This document shows positions 6,156 through 13,080 of a stretch of 25,514 nt of DNA, piece by piece. The translations under genes and the position numbers were made by a program. Numbering within the stretch: the stretch's first letter is position 1; every line of letters begins with the position of its first letter. Under the pieces are notes generated by a model. The model had not been told where the DNA came from, did not search any database, and worked only from the letters and a program-made list of their open reading frames with translations. Source of the stretch: a virus; the IMG/VR virus record IMGVR_UViG_3300030061_003212, positions 1 to 25,514 of that record; one strand, 5' to 3'.

Positions 6156-6312
6156 AAACTAATAATAGTAGTAATAACTACTAATCTTTAATACTAATAA
6201 ATTATTAAATAATAATTAAAATAATTACTATAAAATAATATAAACAGGGGAAGTCGAAAACCTAATAGAGTAGACATATTAAATAGCTTGTGGCTTAACC
6301 ACTAAAATAATT
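6156..6312 (+). other. Long AT-rich leader with small hairpins
   Basis: No gene is visible here. The first 85 bases are almost entirely A and T and include a 7-bp hairpin, TAGTAGT-AATA-ACTACTA (6166-6183). The last 70 bases change character. They contain AGGGGAAGTCGAAAACCT (6246-6263) and a small hairpin GTGG-CTTAA-CCAC (6290-6302), ending 10 bases before the ATG at 6313. If transcription starts just after promoter copy C, this is an unusually long untranslated leader and could hold a regulatory RNA. No known riboswitch is recognised. Confidence 0.4.
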
Positions 6313-6639
6313 ATGTTAAAACATAGAACAGGACCAGGTAATCAATTACCAATTAAACACAACCAGAAAAAACCTTTCAATCCTAATAAATATGGAAAGT
6401 TATGGAGTACAATAAGTTCTAAACTTATGAAAGGAGCTAAAGCTAAAAATCCTCAGGGAGAAGCTAATCAGCCTTTAATCTGTACATTAAATATTGGAAA
6501 TAGTAAGTTTGAACTTACTCATTCAGAATGTAATAGGTTAATAGAAGAAGTACAAGATGCTCAATCAACTTACAGAAAAGCTTTAAGAATGGGGATGTTA
6601 GAACACAACTCAGGTACATGGGAAGGTTACACAAAATAA
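6313..6639 (+). CDS. 108-residue hypothetical protein
   Basis: A basic, flexible N-terminus (HRTGPGNQLPIKHNQKKPFN) is followed by a basic helix (LMKGAKAKNP). Then comes a compact domain, residues 55-100, with beta strands (LICTLNIGNSKFELTHSECN) and a helix (RLIEEVQDAQSTYRKALRMG). The second half looks like a conserved small phage domain, but I cannot name it. The ATG follows the long leader described above, with no clear Shine-Dalgarno sequence. Confidence 0.65.
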   Translation: MLKHRTGPGNQLPIKHNQKKPFNPNKYGKLWSTISSKLMKGAKAKNPQGEANQPLICTLNIGNSKFELTHSECNRLIEEVQDAQSTYRKALRMGMLEHNSGTWEGYTK

Positions 6640-6658: not shown

Positions 6659-6883
6659 ATGGAATCATTTTTAAGTTTAATATTAGGTTTACTAGTAGGA
6701 GCAATTGCAGCTTCAGCATACTTTCTTAGAAGATATACAGGAGTAAATGATTTATTGTCAGACAAGATGTTTGTTAATAGCTTATTGAAAGAGCAGATAA
6801 AAGAGGCTCACGCAAAAAAATCTAAGAAATATTACAGAAGAAAATCTTATAATAAGAATACAGCAAAAGCTTCTAAACAGTAA
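6659..6883 (+). CDS. 74-residue membrane-anchored basic protein
   Basis: A good Shine-Dalgarno sequence (AAAGGAG at 6643-6649) precedes the ATG. Residues 3-23 form one membrane helix (SFLSLILGLLVGAIAASAYF). The rest is strongly basic (KKSKKYYRRKSYNKNTAKAS). The type is a membrane tether with a polybasic tail that could bind nucleic acid or acidic lipid. It ends 8 bases before the ATATTTATAT element and the tmRNA. Function unknown. Confidence 0.65.
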   Translation: MESFLSLILGLLVGAIAASAYFLRRYTGVNDLLSDKMFVNSLLKEQIKEAHAKKSKKYYRRKSYNKNTAKASKQ

Positions 6884-6891
6884 TATATATG

Positions 6892-6901
6892 ATATTTATA
6901 T
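6892..6901 (+). promoter_or_regulatory. ATATTTATAT element upstream of tmRNA (putative late promoter)
   Basis: This is an exact copy of the 10-mer that precedes several late genes. It directly abuts the acceptor half of the tmRNA, so it may drive tmRNA expression. If the start site is 5-12 bases downstream, transcription begins near 6906-6913, and the outermost predicted P2 pairing (6901-6907 with 7025-7031) would not form. Confidence 0.4.
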
Positions 6902-7131
6902 TTGAACGCTATTACTTATATTAGCTACTCTTTTGGACGTGGGTTCGAAACCCACCAGCTCCACAAAACAATTTTAACGACATGGGGCTGACTGGATTTG
7001 ACAGAGAGATAAGGGTATAAGGAAGTTCAAACGCAATTAACTGGCGAACAAGTTGAAATGGCGATGGCTGCCTAATTAGGCACCCTGACCCAACGGTAGA
7101 AGAAGCATACCGTCAAAGCTTCGGTGGTTGG
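6901..7131 (+). ncRNA. ssrA: Circularly permuted (two-piece) tmRNA
   Basis: tmRNA rescues stalled ribosomes and tags the nascent protein for proteolysis. Here the 3' half comes first. The upstream piece holds the T-arm GTGGG-TTCGAAA-CCCAC (6939-6955), acceptor strand CAGCTCC (6956-6962) and discriminator A6963. After a 20-base spacer (6964-6983) comes the 5' half: GGGGCTG (6984-6990), which pairs with all seven bases of CAGCTCC, and the D-like segment GGATTTGACA. P2 can form between the pieces: AGAGAG (7003-7008) with CTCTTT (6928-6933), ATAAG (7009-7013) with CTTAT (6915-6919), and perhaps GTTCAAA (7025-7031) with TTTGAAC (6901-6907). A tag frame, a stop in a hairpin loop and an H-type pseudoknot follow. 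CCA is not encoded. PK1 is not evident. Exact piece ends are uncertain. Confidence 0.88.
7043..7075 (+). other. tmRNA proteolysis-tag reading frame, GEQVEMAMAA-stop
   Basis: From GGC at 7043 the frame reads G-E-Q-V-E-M-A-M-A-A followed by TAA at 7073-7075. The terminal small hydrophobic residues resemble the usual ALAA or AVAA degron read by ClpXP-type proteases. A Gly-Glu start recalls the GE(N/T)NYALAA tags that I associate with Bacteroidota. The stop codon lies in the loop of a hairpin (TGCC 7069-7072 with GGCA 7079-7082), as in classical tmRNAs. The resume codon is inferred: GGC is the best choice, but an upstream in-frame codon cannot be excluded. Confidence 0.75.
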
Positions 7132-7148
7132 AGGTAAAAAATAAAATT

Positions 7149-8078
7149 ATGGAAAGAATTATGTACAAAGGAGATGAAGATAAAGGATTTGATGAAGCTT
7201 TCGAAACAACGTATTTAGTTGTTACGGGTAAGATTAAATTAGAAAATCTAGGAAAAGGTGGTAGAGAAATATTTATGCTCTATGACCCTATTGATGTAGA
7301 TGAAAAAGAACTCCGCGAAGTGTTAGAGGATATGATATTATATTTTATCGAGACAGAAGAGTATGAGAAATGTCAAGAGATAAAAGAAATATTAGATAGT
7401 GGCCTTAAAGCTCTAATGCCAAAAATAACATATAATGATTTGGAAATACTACCTGTTCCAAGTAAAAAGGCATCGACAAAAGAAAATTCTATAGATAAAA
7501 TGATAAACTTATTAAAGAATTTTTCAGAAAAAGAAAAGCAAAGACTTGATAAAAAAATTAAAGATGGTACTTTTCTAGGTGGATATAAAAAATATAGTGG
7601 CGAAATAACAAGTAAAGAATTTTGGTCTATACTTTCTATAGAAGACAAGACAATATTCGAAAATGATTTTGAAATATTTAATATTTGGGTAAAAAAGCTT
7701 GATAAAAAAATTAAAGAGTTTTATCTTGAAAGACTGGTTCAAGGCAAATCACTAATACCTCCTTTCGAAGGATATAACTCAGGACCTGAAAATGCAGGTA
7801 CCTGGCCAACATTTAACGATAGCGAAAAATTTAGTACTGACGATGTGTTTGAAGGTGAAGAAGAAATTGATTATGAAAATAAAGTTGTAATAAGCTTTAT
7901 AGATAATTTTACTTGTATAAGTAATTTTGACTTGAAGAAAATAAATAGAATAAGGTTCCAGTTATTAAGCTTTGGTATTTTAGAAACAGAAATACGAATT
8001 AAAAAAATCGACAAAAGAAATTTATACACACTTGTATATGATAGCCAGCAAAATATAAACAAAATTGACTGGAACTAA
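7149..8078 (+). CDS. 309-residue hypothetical protein
   Basis: I placed the start at ATG 7149 (an alternative is ATG 7161) because an earlier TTG would lie inside the tmRNA pseudoknot. GGAGG at 7130-7134 is a possible but distant ribosome site. The protein is charged and mostly helical, with no signal or membrane segment. Features include a segment like a UVR interaction motif (EEYEKCQEIKEIL, near residue 77), a linker with LEILPVPSKKAS, and a Lys-rich helical region. A Pro/Gly-rich turn (IPPFEGYNSGPENAGTWP) precedes an acidic stretch (FEGEEEIDYENK). No family is recognised. The stop overlaps the next ATG (TAATG). Confidence 0.75.
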   Translation: MERIMYKGDEDKGFDEAFETTYLVVTGKIKLENLGKGGREIFMLYDPIDVDEKELREVLEDMILYFIETEEYEKCQEIKEILDSGLKALMPKITYNDLEILPVPSKKASTKENSIDKMINLLKNFSEKEKQRLDKKIKDGTFLGGYKKYSGEITSKEFWSILSIEDKTIFENDFEIFNIWVKKLDKKIKEFYLERLVQGKSLIPPFEGYNSGPENAGTWPTFNDSEKFSTDDVFEGEEEIDYENKVVISFIDNFTCISNFDLKKINRIRFQLLSFGILETEIRIKKIDKRNLYTLVYDSQQNINKIDWN

Positions 8079-9073
8079 TGAACAAACTTTTTCCTACTAT
8101 AATAGCGATCGCGGCTTTAGCTGTTTCAGGCTCAGCTGCATTTTATTCAGTATTTGGACTGAGTAAATTATTTGCTGGTGCATCTACTGAGGTAATAATA
8201 ATGGCAGGTTCGCTAGAATTTGCTAAATTAGTAGTAGCGTCGCTTTTGTATCAATATTGGGACACTATAAATAAAGTGCTTAGAACGTATTTGGCTACCG
8301 CTTGTTTTATATTGATGATAATTACATCAGGAGGTATTTATGGATTTTTATCTGGTGCATATCAAGAAACTGCAACAAAATCAGAGATGTTAGATAAATC
8401 ATTAGCAATAATAAATCAAAAACAAGTCAGGTTCCAAGAACAAAAGGCAGATTTACAAATAGAGAAAGGACAGTTAAACAAATCAATCTCTGATTTAAGA
8501 GTAGCATTATCAAATCCAGCACAAGTACAATATGTGGATAAAGAATCAGGTCAGTTAATCACAACAACATCAAGCTCTGCTAGAAAAGCTCTACAAAATG
8601 AGTTAACCGCTACAATAGAAGACAGAGATGGTGTTAATGTAAAAATTGAAGCAGTATTGGATTCTATAAACAAGTTGGATGTGGCATTGTTAGAAAAGGA
8701 AATTGGCAATGAAGAGCAAAGAGAACTAGGCCCTCTTAAATATCTTGCAGAAACAACTGGATATGATATGGGCAAGGTTGTAAACTGGTTTTTATTACTA
8801 ATTGTATTTGTATTTGACCCACTTGCTATAGCATTAGTTGTAGCAGCTAATTTTGCATTTGCAAAAATAAAAGAACAAAAAAGCTTAGAAGATAAAGAAG
8901 ACGAGATGAAAGATTTAGGCTTAGACCTGTCAGGAATGAACCGCTTAGAAAAAGTTGAGGCACTTAATAGCAAGGTAGCCAATGGTTTACGTCAAATTAA
9001 CGACTTCGAAAGCAAAATAAACTCTGTTTCAGGTATACTTAATAATATAAGAAATAAAGTTAAGGGTAAATAA
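8078..9073 (+). CDS. Four-helix membrane protein with long coiled-coil domain
   Basis: 331 residues. Hydrophobic segments lie at about 5-28 (TIIAIAALAVSGSAAFYSVF), 38-58 (VIIMAGSLEFAKLVVASLLY), 70-92 (LATACFILMIITSGGIYGFL) and 232-262 (VVNWFLLLIVFVFDPLAIAL). Between helices 3 and 4 lies a coiled-coil region of about 120 residues rich in Gln, Glu and Lys. A second coiled coil closes the C-terminus. The layout resembles DUF4407-like membrane proteins of bacteria, though I cannot confirm membership. It is probably an inner-membrane protein with the coiled coil on one face. It is coupled to the previous gene by TAATG and followed by TAATATG. Role unknown. Confidence 0.75.
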   Translation: MNKLFPTIIAIAALAVSGSAAFYSVFGLSKLFAGASTEVIIMAGSLEFAKLVVASLLYQYWDTINKVLRTYLATACFILMIITSGGIYGFLSGAYQETATKSEMLDKSLAIINQKQVRFQEQKADLQIEKGQLNKSISDLRVALSNPAQVQYVDKESGQLITTTSSSARKALQNELTATIEDRDGVNVKIEAVLDSINKLDVALLEKEIGNEEQRELGPLKYLAETTGYDMGKVVNWFLLLIVFVFDPLAIALVVAANFAFAKIKEQKSLEDKEDEMKDLGLDLSGMNRLEKVEALNSKVANGLRQINDFESKINSVSGILNNIRNKVKGK

Positions 9074-12289: not shown

Positions 12290-12703
12290 ATGAAAAAATT
12301 GATTTTAACAATGATGTTAGCAATTGCAGCGGTATTCTCTACACAAGCACAAGAAAAAGGTGATTGGTATGTAGGTACTGGTGATGTTGCAAATATCGCA
12401 TGGACAGAATGGGCAGTAAGCCCTACCGTTGGTTACGGTGTTATGGATAATCTAATGGTCGGTGTTTCGGTTGCTCAAGCTGATTCAACGGTCGATATGG
12501 ATTATGATTTTCACGCAAGATATTTTAGAAATGGATATTTTGCTTATGTAGCAACAGATGGTTTAAGCACTGATAACATTAGTTATGGTGTAGGTAAAAT
12601 GTTTACGTTGTGGAACAACAACTTGTATGTTGACCCAAAAATTGTATACAATTCAGGAGAAAAGACTACGAATCTTACTTTAGGATTCGGTCTTAAATTC
12701 TAA
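12290..12703 (+). CDS. Small outer membrane beta-barrel protein (OmpX/Lom-type size)
   Basis: The ATG at 12290 follows AGAGG and opens a classic signal peptide (MKKLILTMMLAIAAVFSTQA, cleavage before QEKGDW). A longer upstream frame would put the leader element inside the protein. The mature 117 residues contain about eight amphipathic strands: WYVGTGDV, WAVSPTVGYGV, LMVGVSVAQA, DYDFHARYF, GYFAYVAT, NISYGVGKMF, LYVDPKIVY and LTLGFGLKF. The last ends in Phe, the outer-membrane insertion signature. FSTQAQEKG resembles flavobacterial outer membrane proteins. Lambda Lom is a known phage-encoded small barrel of the OmpX type. Possible roles are surface alteration, superinfection exclusion or lysis support, none proven. 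Confidence 0.82.
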   Translation: MKKLILTMMLAIAAVFSTQAQEKGDWYVGTGDVANIAWTEWAVSPTVGYGVMDNLMVGVSVAQADSTVDMDYDFHARYFRNGYFAYVATDGLSTDNISYGVGKMFTLWNNNLYVDPKIVYNSGEKTTNLTLGFGLKF

Positions 12704-13056: not shown

Positions 13057-13070
13057 TTTATATATATCTG

Positions 13071-13080
13071 ATATTTATAT
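13071..13080 (+). promoter_or_regulatory. ATATTTATAT element before baseplate cluster (putative late promoter)
   Basis: Exact copy of the 10-mer in the gap between a terminator and the first structural gene, which is where a promoter is required. AGGAG (13086-13090) follows, then the ATG at 13097. This is the strongest case for promoter function of this element. Confidence 0.6.

Follow-up and report, generated by a model that had tools for sequence, protein, structure and literature searches.

Positions 6901 to 7131 of the window (the whole stretch analyzed, a linear fragment of 25,514 bases that makes up the entire IMG/VR record) carry what is, at a probability of about 0.9 on the sequence evidence, a functional phage-encoded tmRNA that is permuted, in two pieces and of the Bacteroidota type, with its processing and function as we infer them below. 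tmRNA is the RNA that releases stuck ribosomes, and the one-piece form is the rule in Bacteroidota. Comparison with related genes shows that the acceptor stem (P1), T-arm, D-loop, P2, a tag frame ending in -AMAA, the stop hairpin, and one downstream pseudoknot are conserved.

Gene calls and layout of the permuted tmRNA

ARAGORN called a permuted tmRNA (tmRNA*) at 6872-7166 with the tag GEQVEMAMAA, and the Rfam model tmRNA_permuted (RF04321, formerly RF01849/01850/01851) matched with 67.8 bits (E 2.6e-11), above its gathering cutoff of 47. The latter model was built by Nawrocki et al. (PMC11915505). Of the alpha, beta, and cyano lineage models, only beta_tmRNA gave a partial match, at 43.2 bits against a cutoff of 84; the conventional tmRNA model (RF00023) reached 19.7 bits on the window, below its cutoff, and no second, conventional 3' half was found downstream of 7131. 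BLAST found no full match to the tmRNA among isolated phages or plasmids. The original prediction, which had proposed a permuted phage tmRNA from the sequence alone, agrees with both programs.

The gene, which lies on the plus strand throughout, runs from an acceptor piece through a spacer to a coding piece, with the 3' half of the tRNA-like domain (TLD) encoded upstream of the 5' half. The acceptor piece (6901-6963) is supported by ARAGORN, RF04321, and the alignment of relatives, and its 5' edge was set where conservation and P2c pairing start. It contains, supported by covariation, one strand each of P2c (6902-6907, pairing with 7025-7030), P2b (6915-6921, with 7015-7021), and P2a (6928-6935, with one bulged base, pairing with 7002-7008), followed by the T-arm (6939-6955), the likewise covarying 3' acceptor strand CAGCUCC (DNA CAGCTCC; 6956-6962), which holds U70 of the alanine identity pair, and the discriminator A at 6963, the predicted mature 3' end, where CCA is not encoded. 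Enzymes of tRNA processing are predicted to excise the 20-nt spacer (6964-6983). The coding piece (6984-7131), whose 3' edge is approximate and marks the end of conservation, begins with the 5' acceptor strand GGGGCUG (DNA GGGGCTG; 6984-6990), before whose first base, G6984, RNase P is predicted to cut, and continues with the D-loop ACUGGAUUUGACAG (6991-7004), which is Bacteroidota-type (UUUGAC, not UUCGAC), and the partner strands of P2 (7002-7030). The tag reading frame GGC...TAA (7043-7075) encodes GEQVEMAMAA, and UAACU precedes its resume codon GGC; sequence and fold place the stop codon within a P5/H5-like hairpin, UGCCU-AAUU-AGGCA (7069-7082), and an H-type pseudoknot supported by compensatory changes follows the tag (7093-7122; S1 7093-7098/7108-7113, S2 7102-7106/7118-7122). 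The two-piece tmRNA of this family comes to about 211 nt in total.

The original coordinates of the T-arm and of both acceptor strands proved exact, and the 20-base gap it had noted between the halves is the spacer. Its seven-pair acceptor stem with a G-U also forms (7/7 pairs, the G-U being G3-U70), and a free-energy fold of the window sequence alone recovered P1, the T-stem, P2c, P2b, part of P2a, and the stop hairpin.

Immediately 5' of the tmRNA, at 6891-6899, stands GATATTTAT, which roughly half of the relatives retain and which recurs at 13070-13078, before ORF 13097, a count not above chance; it could serve the phage as a promoter or a processing signal. A scan of the window for TAnnTTTG promoters gave no more matches than chance. 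The DUF805b RNA motif (RF02914), a structured RNA element found here in a phage, matches the plus strand at 6244-6276, just upstream of ORF 6313-6639, with 36.0 bits against a cutoff of 35.6.

Covariation, tags, and spacers among the relatives

With the protein of ORF 8078-9073 as query, 80 loci of related phages were fetched, and a DNA pattern of the junction identified 49 stretches with the same junction; removal of copies left 48 distinct tmRNA genes, all from marine IMG/VR phages. The block conserved across the 48-member alignment extends from the P2c strand (6902) to beyond the pseudoknot (about 7131), in good agreement with the boundaries first predicted, 6901-7131. In the 44 distinct rows, the acceptor stem and T-stem are 100% paired, the T-stem has compensatory changes at two pairs, and G3-U70 is invariant (44/44). 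As had been proposed, both the acceptor stem and P2 form across the junction, with P2 divided into three parts: P2a is 96.7% paired (shuffled mean 75%, maximum 79%), P2b 96.7% (mean 90%, maximum 92%), and P2c 89% of cells (mean 75%, maximum 79%), so that pairing exceeds all 300 shuffles, and while these shuffles ignore the relatedness of the rows, the variety of pair types is independent of it. Many pairs have changed on both sides; one P2b pair appears as G-C, A-U, U-G, C-G, and U-A, and P2c occurs as GTTC/GAAC, GGTC/GACC, GATC/GATC, and GACC/GGTC. A huge-phage match, LR756501, was rejected, as it is a tRNA-Lys.

This record also bears on whether the element is a tmRNA at all. The one point in favor of a chance juxtaposition of a tRNA fragment and an acceptor-like repeat is that RF04321 gives matches of 47 to 65 bits and doubtful form in other genomes; however, a search pattern combining the T-arm, the two acceptor strands with the spacer between them, and the D-loop occurs once in the window and in 0 of 100 dinucleotide shuffles, and the covariation among 48 relatives refutes a chance juxtaposition, leaving it hardly any probability.

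The tag reads GxxVxxAMAA in 41 of the 42 short-tag members, the remaining one being truncated by a contig end. Variation in its last two alanine codons is synonymous, confined to third positions, and the stop codon may be TAA, TAG, or TGA. Six members (L089, L139, L143, L144, L145, and L147) instead have a tag of 35 to 37 codons whose protein sequence is conserved; that of L089 is GTQIKSVKAGIFASLAAIRLLATETVATEESVYAMAA, and the long tags resemble the short tag at both ends. ARAGORN misreads several of these members. A hairpin resembling an intrinsic terminator comes after most of the long-tag frames. The S2 stem of the pseudoknot changes in a compensatory manner among relatives (GAAGC/GCUUC, GAGGU/ACCUC, GAGAC/GUCUC, GGGC/GCCC).

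PK1, the pseudoknot between P2 and the tag that is typical of two-piece tmRNAs without defining them, is absent from the window and from the 48 members. There is no room for it, because 12 nt (7031-7042) separate P2c from the resume codon in the window, and 35 to 41 nt separate the GAC of the D-loop from the resume codon in 48/48 members. Tagging by the E. coli tmRNA requires PK1 unless a hairpin takes its place, and two-piece tmRNAs have fewer pseudoknots (PMC3968760).

Spacer length ranges from about 15 to 75 nt. Four spacers contain a whole tRNA gene, tRNA-Ala in L111 (3674-3748), L139 (4786-4860), and L147 (4462-4536) and tRNA-Glu in L229 (1417-1489), as one would predict for a spacer that tRNA-processing enzymes cut out. 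The long spacers of L006, L030, L040, L050, and L064 consist of inverted and repeated AT-rich units (ATTATATGTGAAAACATATAAT). A tRNA-Ala also lies in the spacer of one permuted tmRNA in the literature, which comes from a nominally archaeal MAG (PMC11915505); we suspect that this is a misbinned phage of the present kind.

The phage, its host, and the proposed working of the tmRNA

The phage is T4-like: the window contains T4-type baseplate genes (gp25 and a gp6-like gene), and it also has a DNA ligase gene. Judged by the gp6-like protein, it is closest among isolates to Microcystis phage Mel-JY01 (45%) and Flavobacterium phage immuto (41%), neither of which has a permuted or conventional tmRNA above cutoff. 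Gene order in the relative L087 (GroES-GroEL ... PD-(D/E)XK, the ORF 8078 homologue, two glycosyltransferases) is close to that of immuto. The protein of window ORF 8078-9073 is a conserved membrane protein of T4-like phages that also occurs in Xanthomonas, Stenotrophomonas, and Pelagibacter phages.

In proteins with a signal-like N-terminus we asked which polar residue comes first after the hydrophobic core, following the Q-rule for Bacteroidetes signal peptides (PMC5837995). Glutamine held that place in 41 of 85 such N-termini, versus 1 of 26 in pelagiphage-type loci; a cleavage-site heuristic tried for the same purpose was uninformative, picking sites inside the hydrophobic core. Given this signature and the presence of immuto among the nearest isolates, the host is very probably a member of the Bacteroidota. 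Shine-Dalgarno use is mixed and not decisive. Two small secreted proteins in the window have Bacteroidetes-style signal peptides, at 12290-12703 (..STQAQ) and 1151-1495 (..LSNGQ; matching DUF6150).

The sole MAG with relatives of this phage, G017, is labelled Pelagibacter and contains at least two phage contigs (L087 and L089), so that two permuted tmRNAs are found in it. A SAR11 host was rejected, as L087 is a phage contig with the immuto gene order and the clade obeys the Q-rule; the label most likely reflects misbinning. The suggestion that this is a permuted tmRNA on a T4-like phage, perhaps of Bacteroidota, is supported by covariation, ARAGORN, Rfam, the gp25 and gp6-like genes, synteny with immuto, and the Q-rule.

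RNase P, the CCA-adding enzyme, alanyl-tRNA synthetase, SmpB, and proteases all have established roles in the life of tmRNA, and a working of the phage RNA can be proposed around them. The tmRNA would be transcribed within a longer phage message, host RNase P would cut before G6984, and 3' processing would trim the acceptor piece to A6963, to which the host would add CCA. P1 and the three-part P2 would hold the two pieces together, host alanyl-tRNA synthetase would charge the molecule by way of G3-U70, and host SmpB would bring it to stalled ribosomes; alanine and then the tag would be added, translation would end at the tmRNA's own stop codon, and the tagged protein would pass to host proteases. 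SmpB was not found in 35 phage records (30 of this clade; several exceed 100 kb, and most are fragments), and host SmpB would therefore serve the phage tmRNA. The authors who described the permuted tmRNA of Melnitz suggested both keeping ribosomes in use and tagging chosen proteins as roles (PMC9004378).

The missing PK1 and the lack of SmpB in these phages could also be read as signs of a decoy, an RNA that inhibits or titrates host SmpB with no rescue of ribosomes, as has been suggested for mycobacteriophage DS6A, whose tmRNA consists of the TLD only (PMC4131195). The resume context UAAC[U/A]GGC, the tag frame, the stop codon, and the pseudoknot are, however, kept in nearly all relatives, and we consider a decoy very unlikely.

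Origin of the permutation and comparison with known tmRNAs

The TLD of this phage tmRNA most resembles that of the one-piece tmRNA of Bacteroidota. Bacteroidota-type one-piece tmRNAs from viral contigs and this phage family have the D-loop GACUGGNUUUGACAG and the GGC resume codon in common, and encoded CCA is mostly absent from both. In about 30 permuted genes from alphaproteobacteria the D-loop is of the GGAUCGAC type and the resume codon is GCA or GCC, and the pelagiphage permuted tmRNAs (17 copies besides that of Pelagibacter phage Mosig) have a UUCGAC D-loop and a GUGCAA-type T-loop; the family lacks the alpha-, beta-, and cyano-type signatures of D-loop, T-loop, and resume codon, the beta and cyano types being compared via Rfam models only. 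The tag was rejected as a lineage marker: pelagiphage permuted tmRNAs include GGC-started tags too, so the tag alone is no proof of a Bacteroidota origin. In a TLD tree of 52 columns, the phage family and the Bacteroidota one-piece genes fall on one side of a branch supported at 91/78, and a clade of all permuted tmRNAs is rejected on those 52 columns alone (p-AU 0.016). RF04321 had no match in a control Bacteroidota genome, that of Bacteroides ihuae.

Since the TLD is most like the one-piece Bacteroidota form, the permutation is most likely separate from those of alphaproteobacteria, betaproteobacteria, and cyanobacteria, and it most likely arose either within the phage's own lineage or in some unsampled host. 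The earlier formula of an "independent or transferred permutation" stands, leaning toward the former by the rejection of an all-permuted clade; we prefer an independent permutation, giving it a chance of one half or slightly more, and regard transfer with convergence as its main rival. In that rival, the gene would descend from alphaproteobacteria or pelagiphages through marine T4-like phages, its D- and T-loops having later converged to suit Bacteroidota SmpB. The D-loop contacts SmpB and could converge on the host type; Mosig, moreover, has a permuted tmRNA with the GGC-started tag GEDNFALAA 3.3 kb from its homologue of ORF 8078-9073, 17 further pelagiphage-type copies exist, and few pseudoknots are typical of two-piece tmRNAs (PMC3968760). 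Transfer nevertheless seems somewhat unlikely, as this family departs from the pelagiphage and alphaproteobacterial forms in D-loop, T-loop, encoded CCA, PK1, and spacer, in addition to the tree test. It is less likely still that the gene was acquired ready-made from a Bacteroidota lineage with its own unsampled permuted tmRNA: the Bacteroidota-type TLD would fit, but the 13 Bacteroidota-type tags in viral contigs belong to one-piece genes wherever ARAGORN could read them, and permuted forms occur mainly in three other clades (PMC11915505).

An independent permutation can be put in a fuller form, to which we give about an even chance: a fourth permutation arose in Bacteroidota phages from a one-piece gene, lost PK1, and spread through a large marine T4-like clade, some of whose members hold whole tRNA genes between the two pieces or have a tag extended to 37 codons. 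In a sister phage, L066 (contig G012; L228 1501-1909), the tmRNA is of the conventional one-piece form, its tag apparently 22 codons long (GKTIAKLATLGLVREGSTVAIA). This gene was rejected as the ancestral form: in the tree of ORF 8078, L066 lies within the clade of phages that carry permuted genes, and its one-piece gene therefore looks like a later exchange or replacement.

An independent permutation would be the fourth occasion on which tmRNA was split and rearranged, this time in a virus or its surroundings, which raises the question of what drives permutation. A natural family lacking PK1 offers a test of the view that tagging needs it. The two-piece phage tmRNA and the one-piece tmRNA of the host would be distinguishable in an infected cell by size and tag, and why phages carry tmRNA becomes directly testable, as the two rescue RNAs can be separated. 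Misbinned phage contigs may explain odd permuted tmRNAs from MAGs of other groups, and the Pelagibacter-labelled MAG is a warning for tmRNA surveys of MAGs.

Permuted phage tmRNAs are already known: among 133 unique structures of phage tmRNAs, 53 were two-piece, and 50 of the 53 came from marine or aquatic phages (PMC9004378). The original premise that phage tmRNAs are one-piece was wrong, as Mosig's permuted gene also shows. Those of Melnitz and Mosig likewise belong to T4-like marine phages, some with GGC-started tags, and have alphaproteobacterial affinity (PMC9004378); SAR11 itself has a permuted tmRNA (PMC2704228). Unlike the family described here, pelagiphage-type tmRNAs combine their distinct D- and T-loops with an encoded CCA and a longer pre-tag stretch that can accommodate PK1. 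The cellular permuted tmRNAs of alphaproteobacteria, betaproteobacteria, and cyanobacteria (RF04321) have the same gene order, P1, P2, T-arm, and tag, whereas the phage family differs in its UUUGAC D-loop with one base fewer before it, GGC resume codon, GxxV tags, lack of encoded CCA and PK1, and grouping of its TLD with Bacteroidota one-piece forms. Those one-piece forms (RF00023; tags like GENNYALAA) have the same D-loop, T-loop, and resume codon and usually no encoded CCA, but are unpermuted, with a longer pre-tag region and a tag ending in -YALAA rather than -EMAMAA. The one-piece tmRNAs of mycobacteriophages and Bacillus phage G (PMC4131195) also have a tag frame, but in conventional order and in other hosts. 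As far as these sources go, the novel features of the present family are its Bacteroidota type, its lack of PK1, the long conserved tags, and the presence of tRNA genes within spacers of phage copies.
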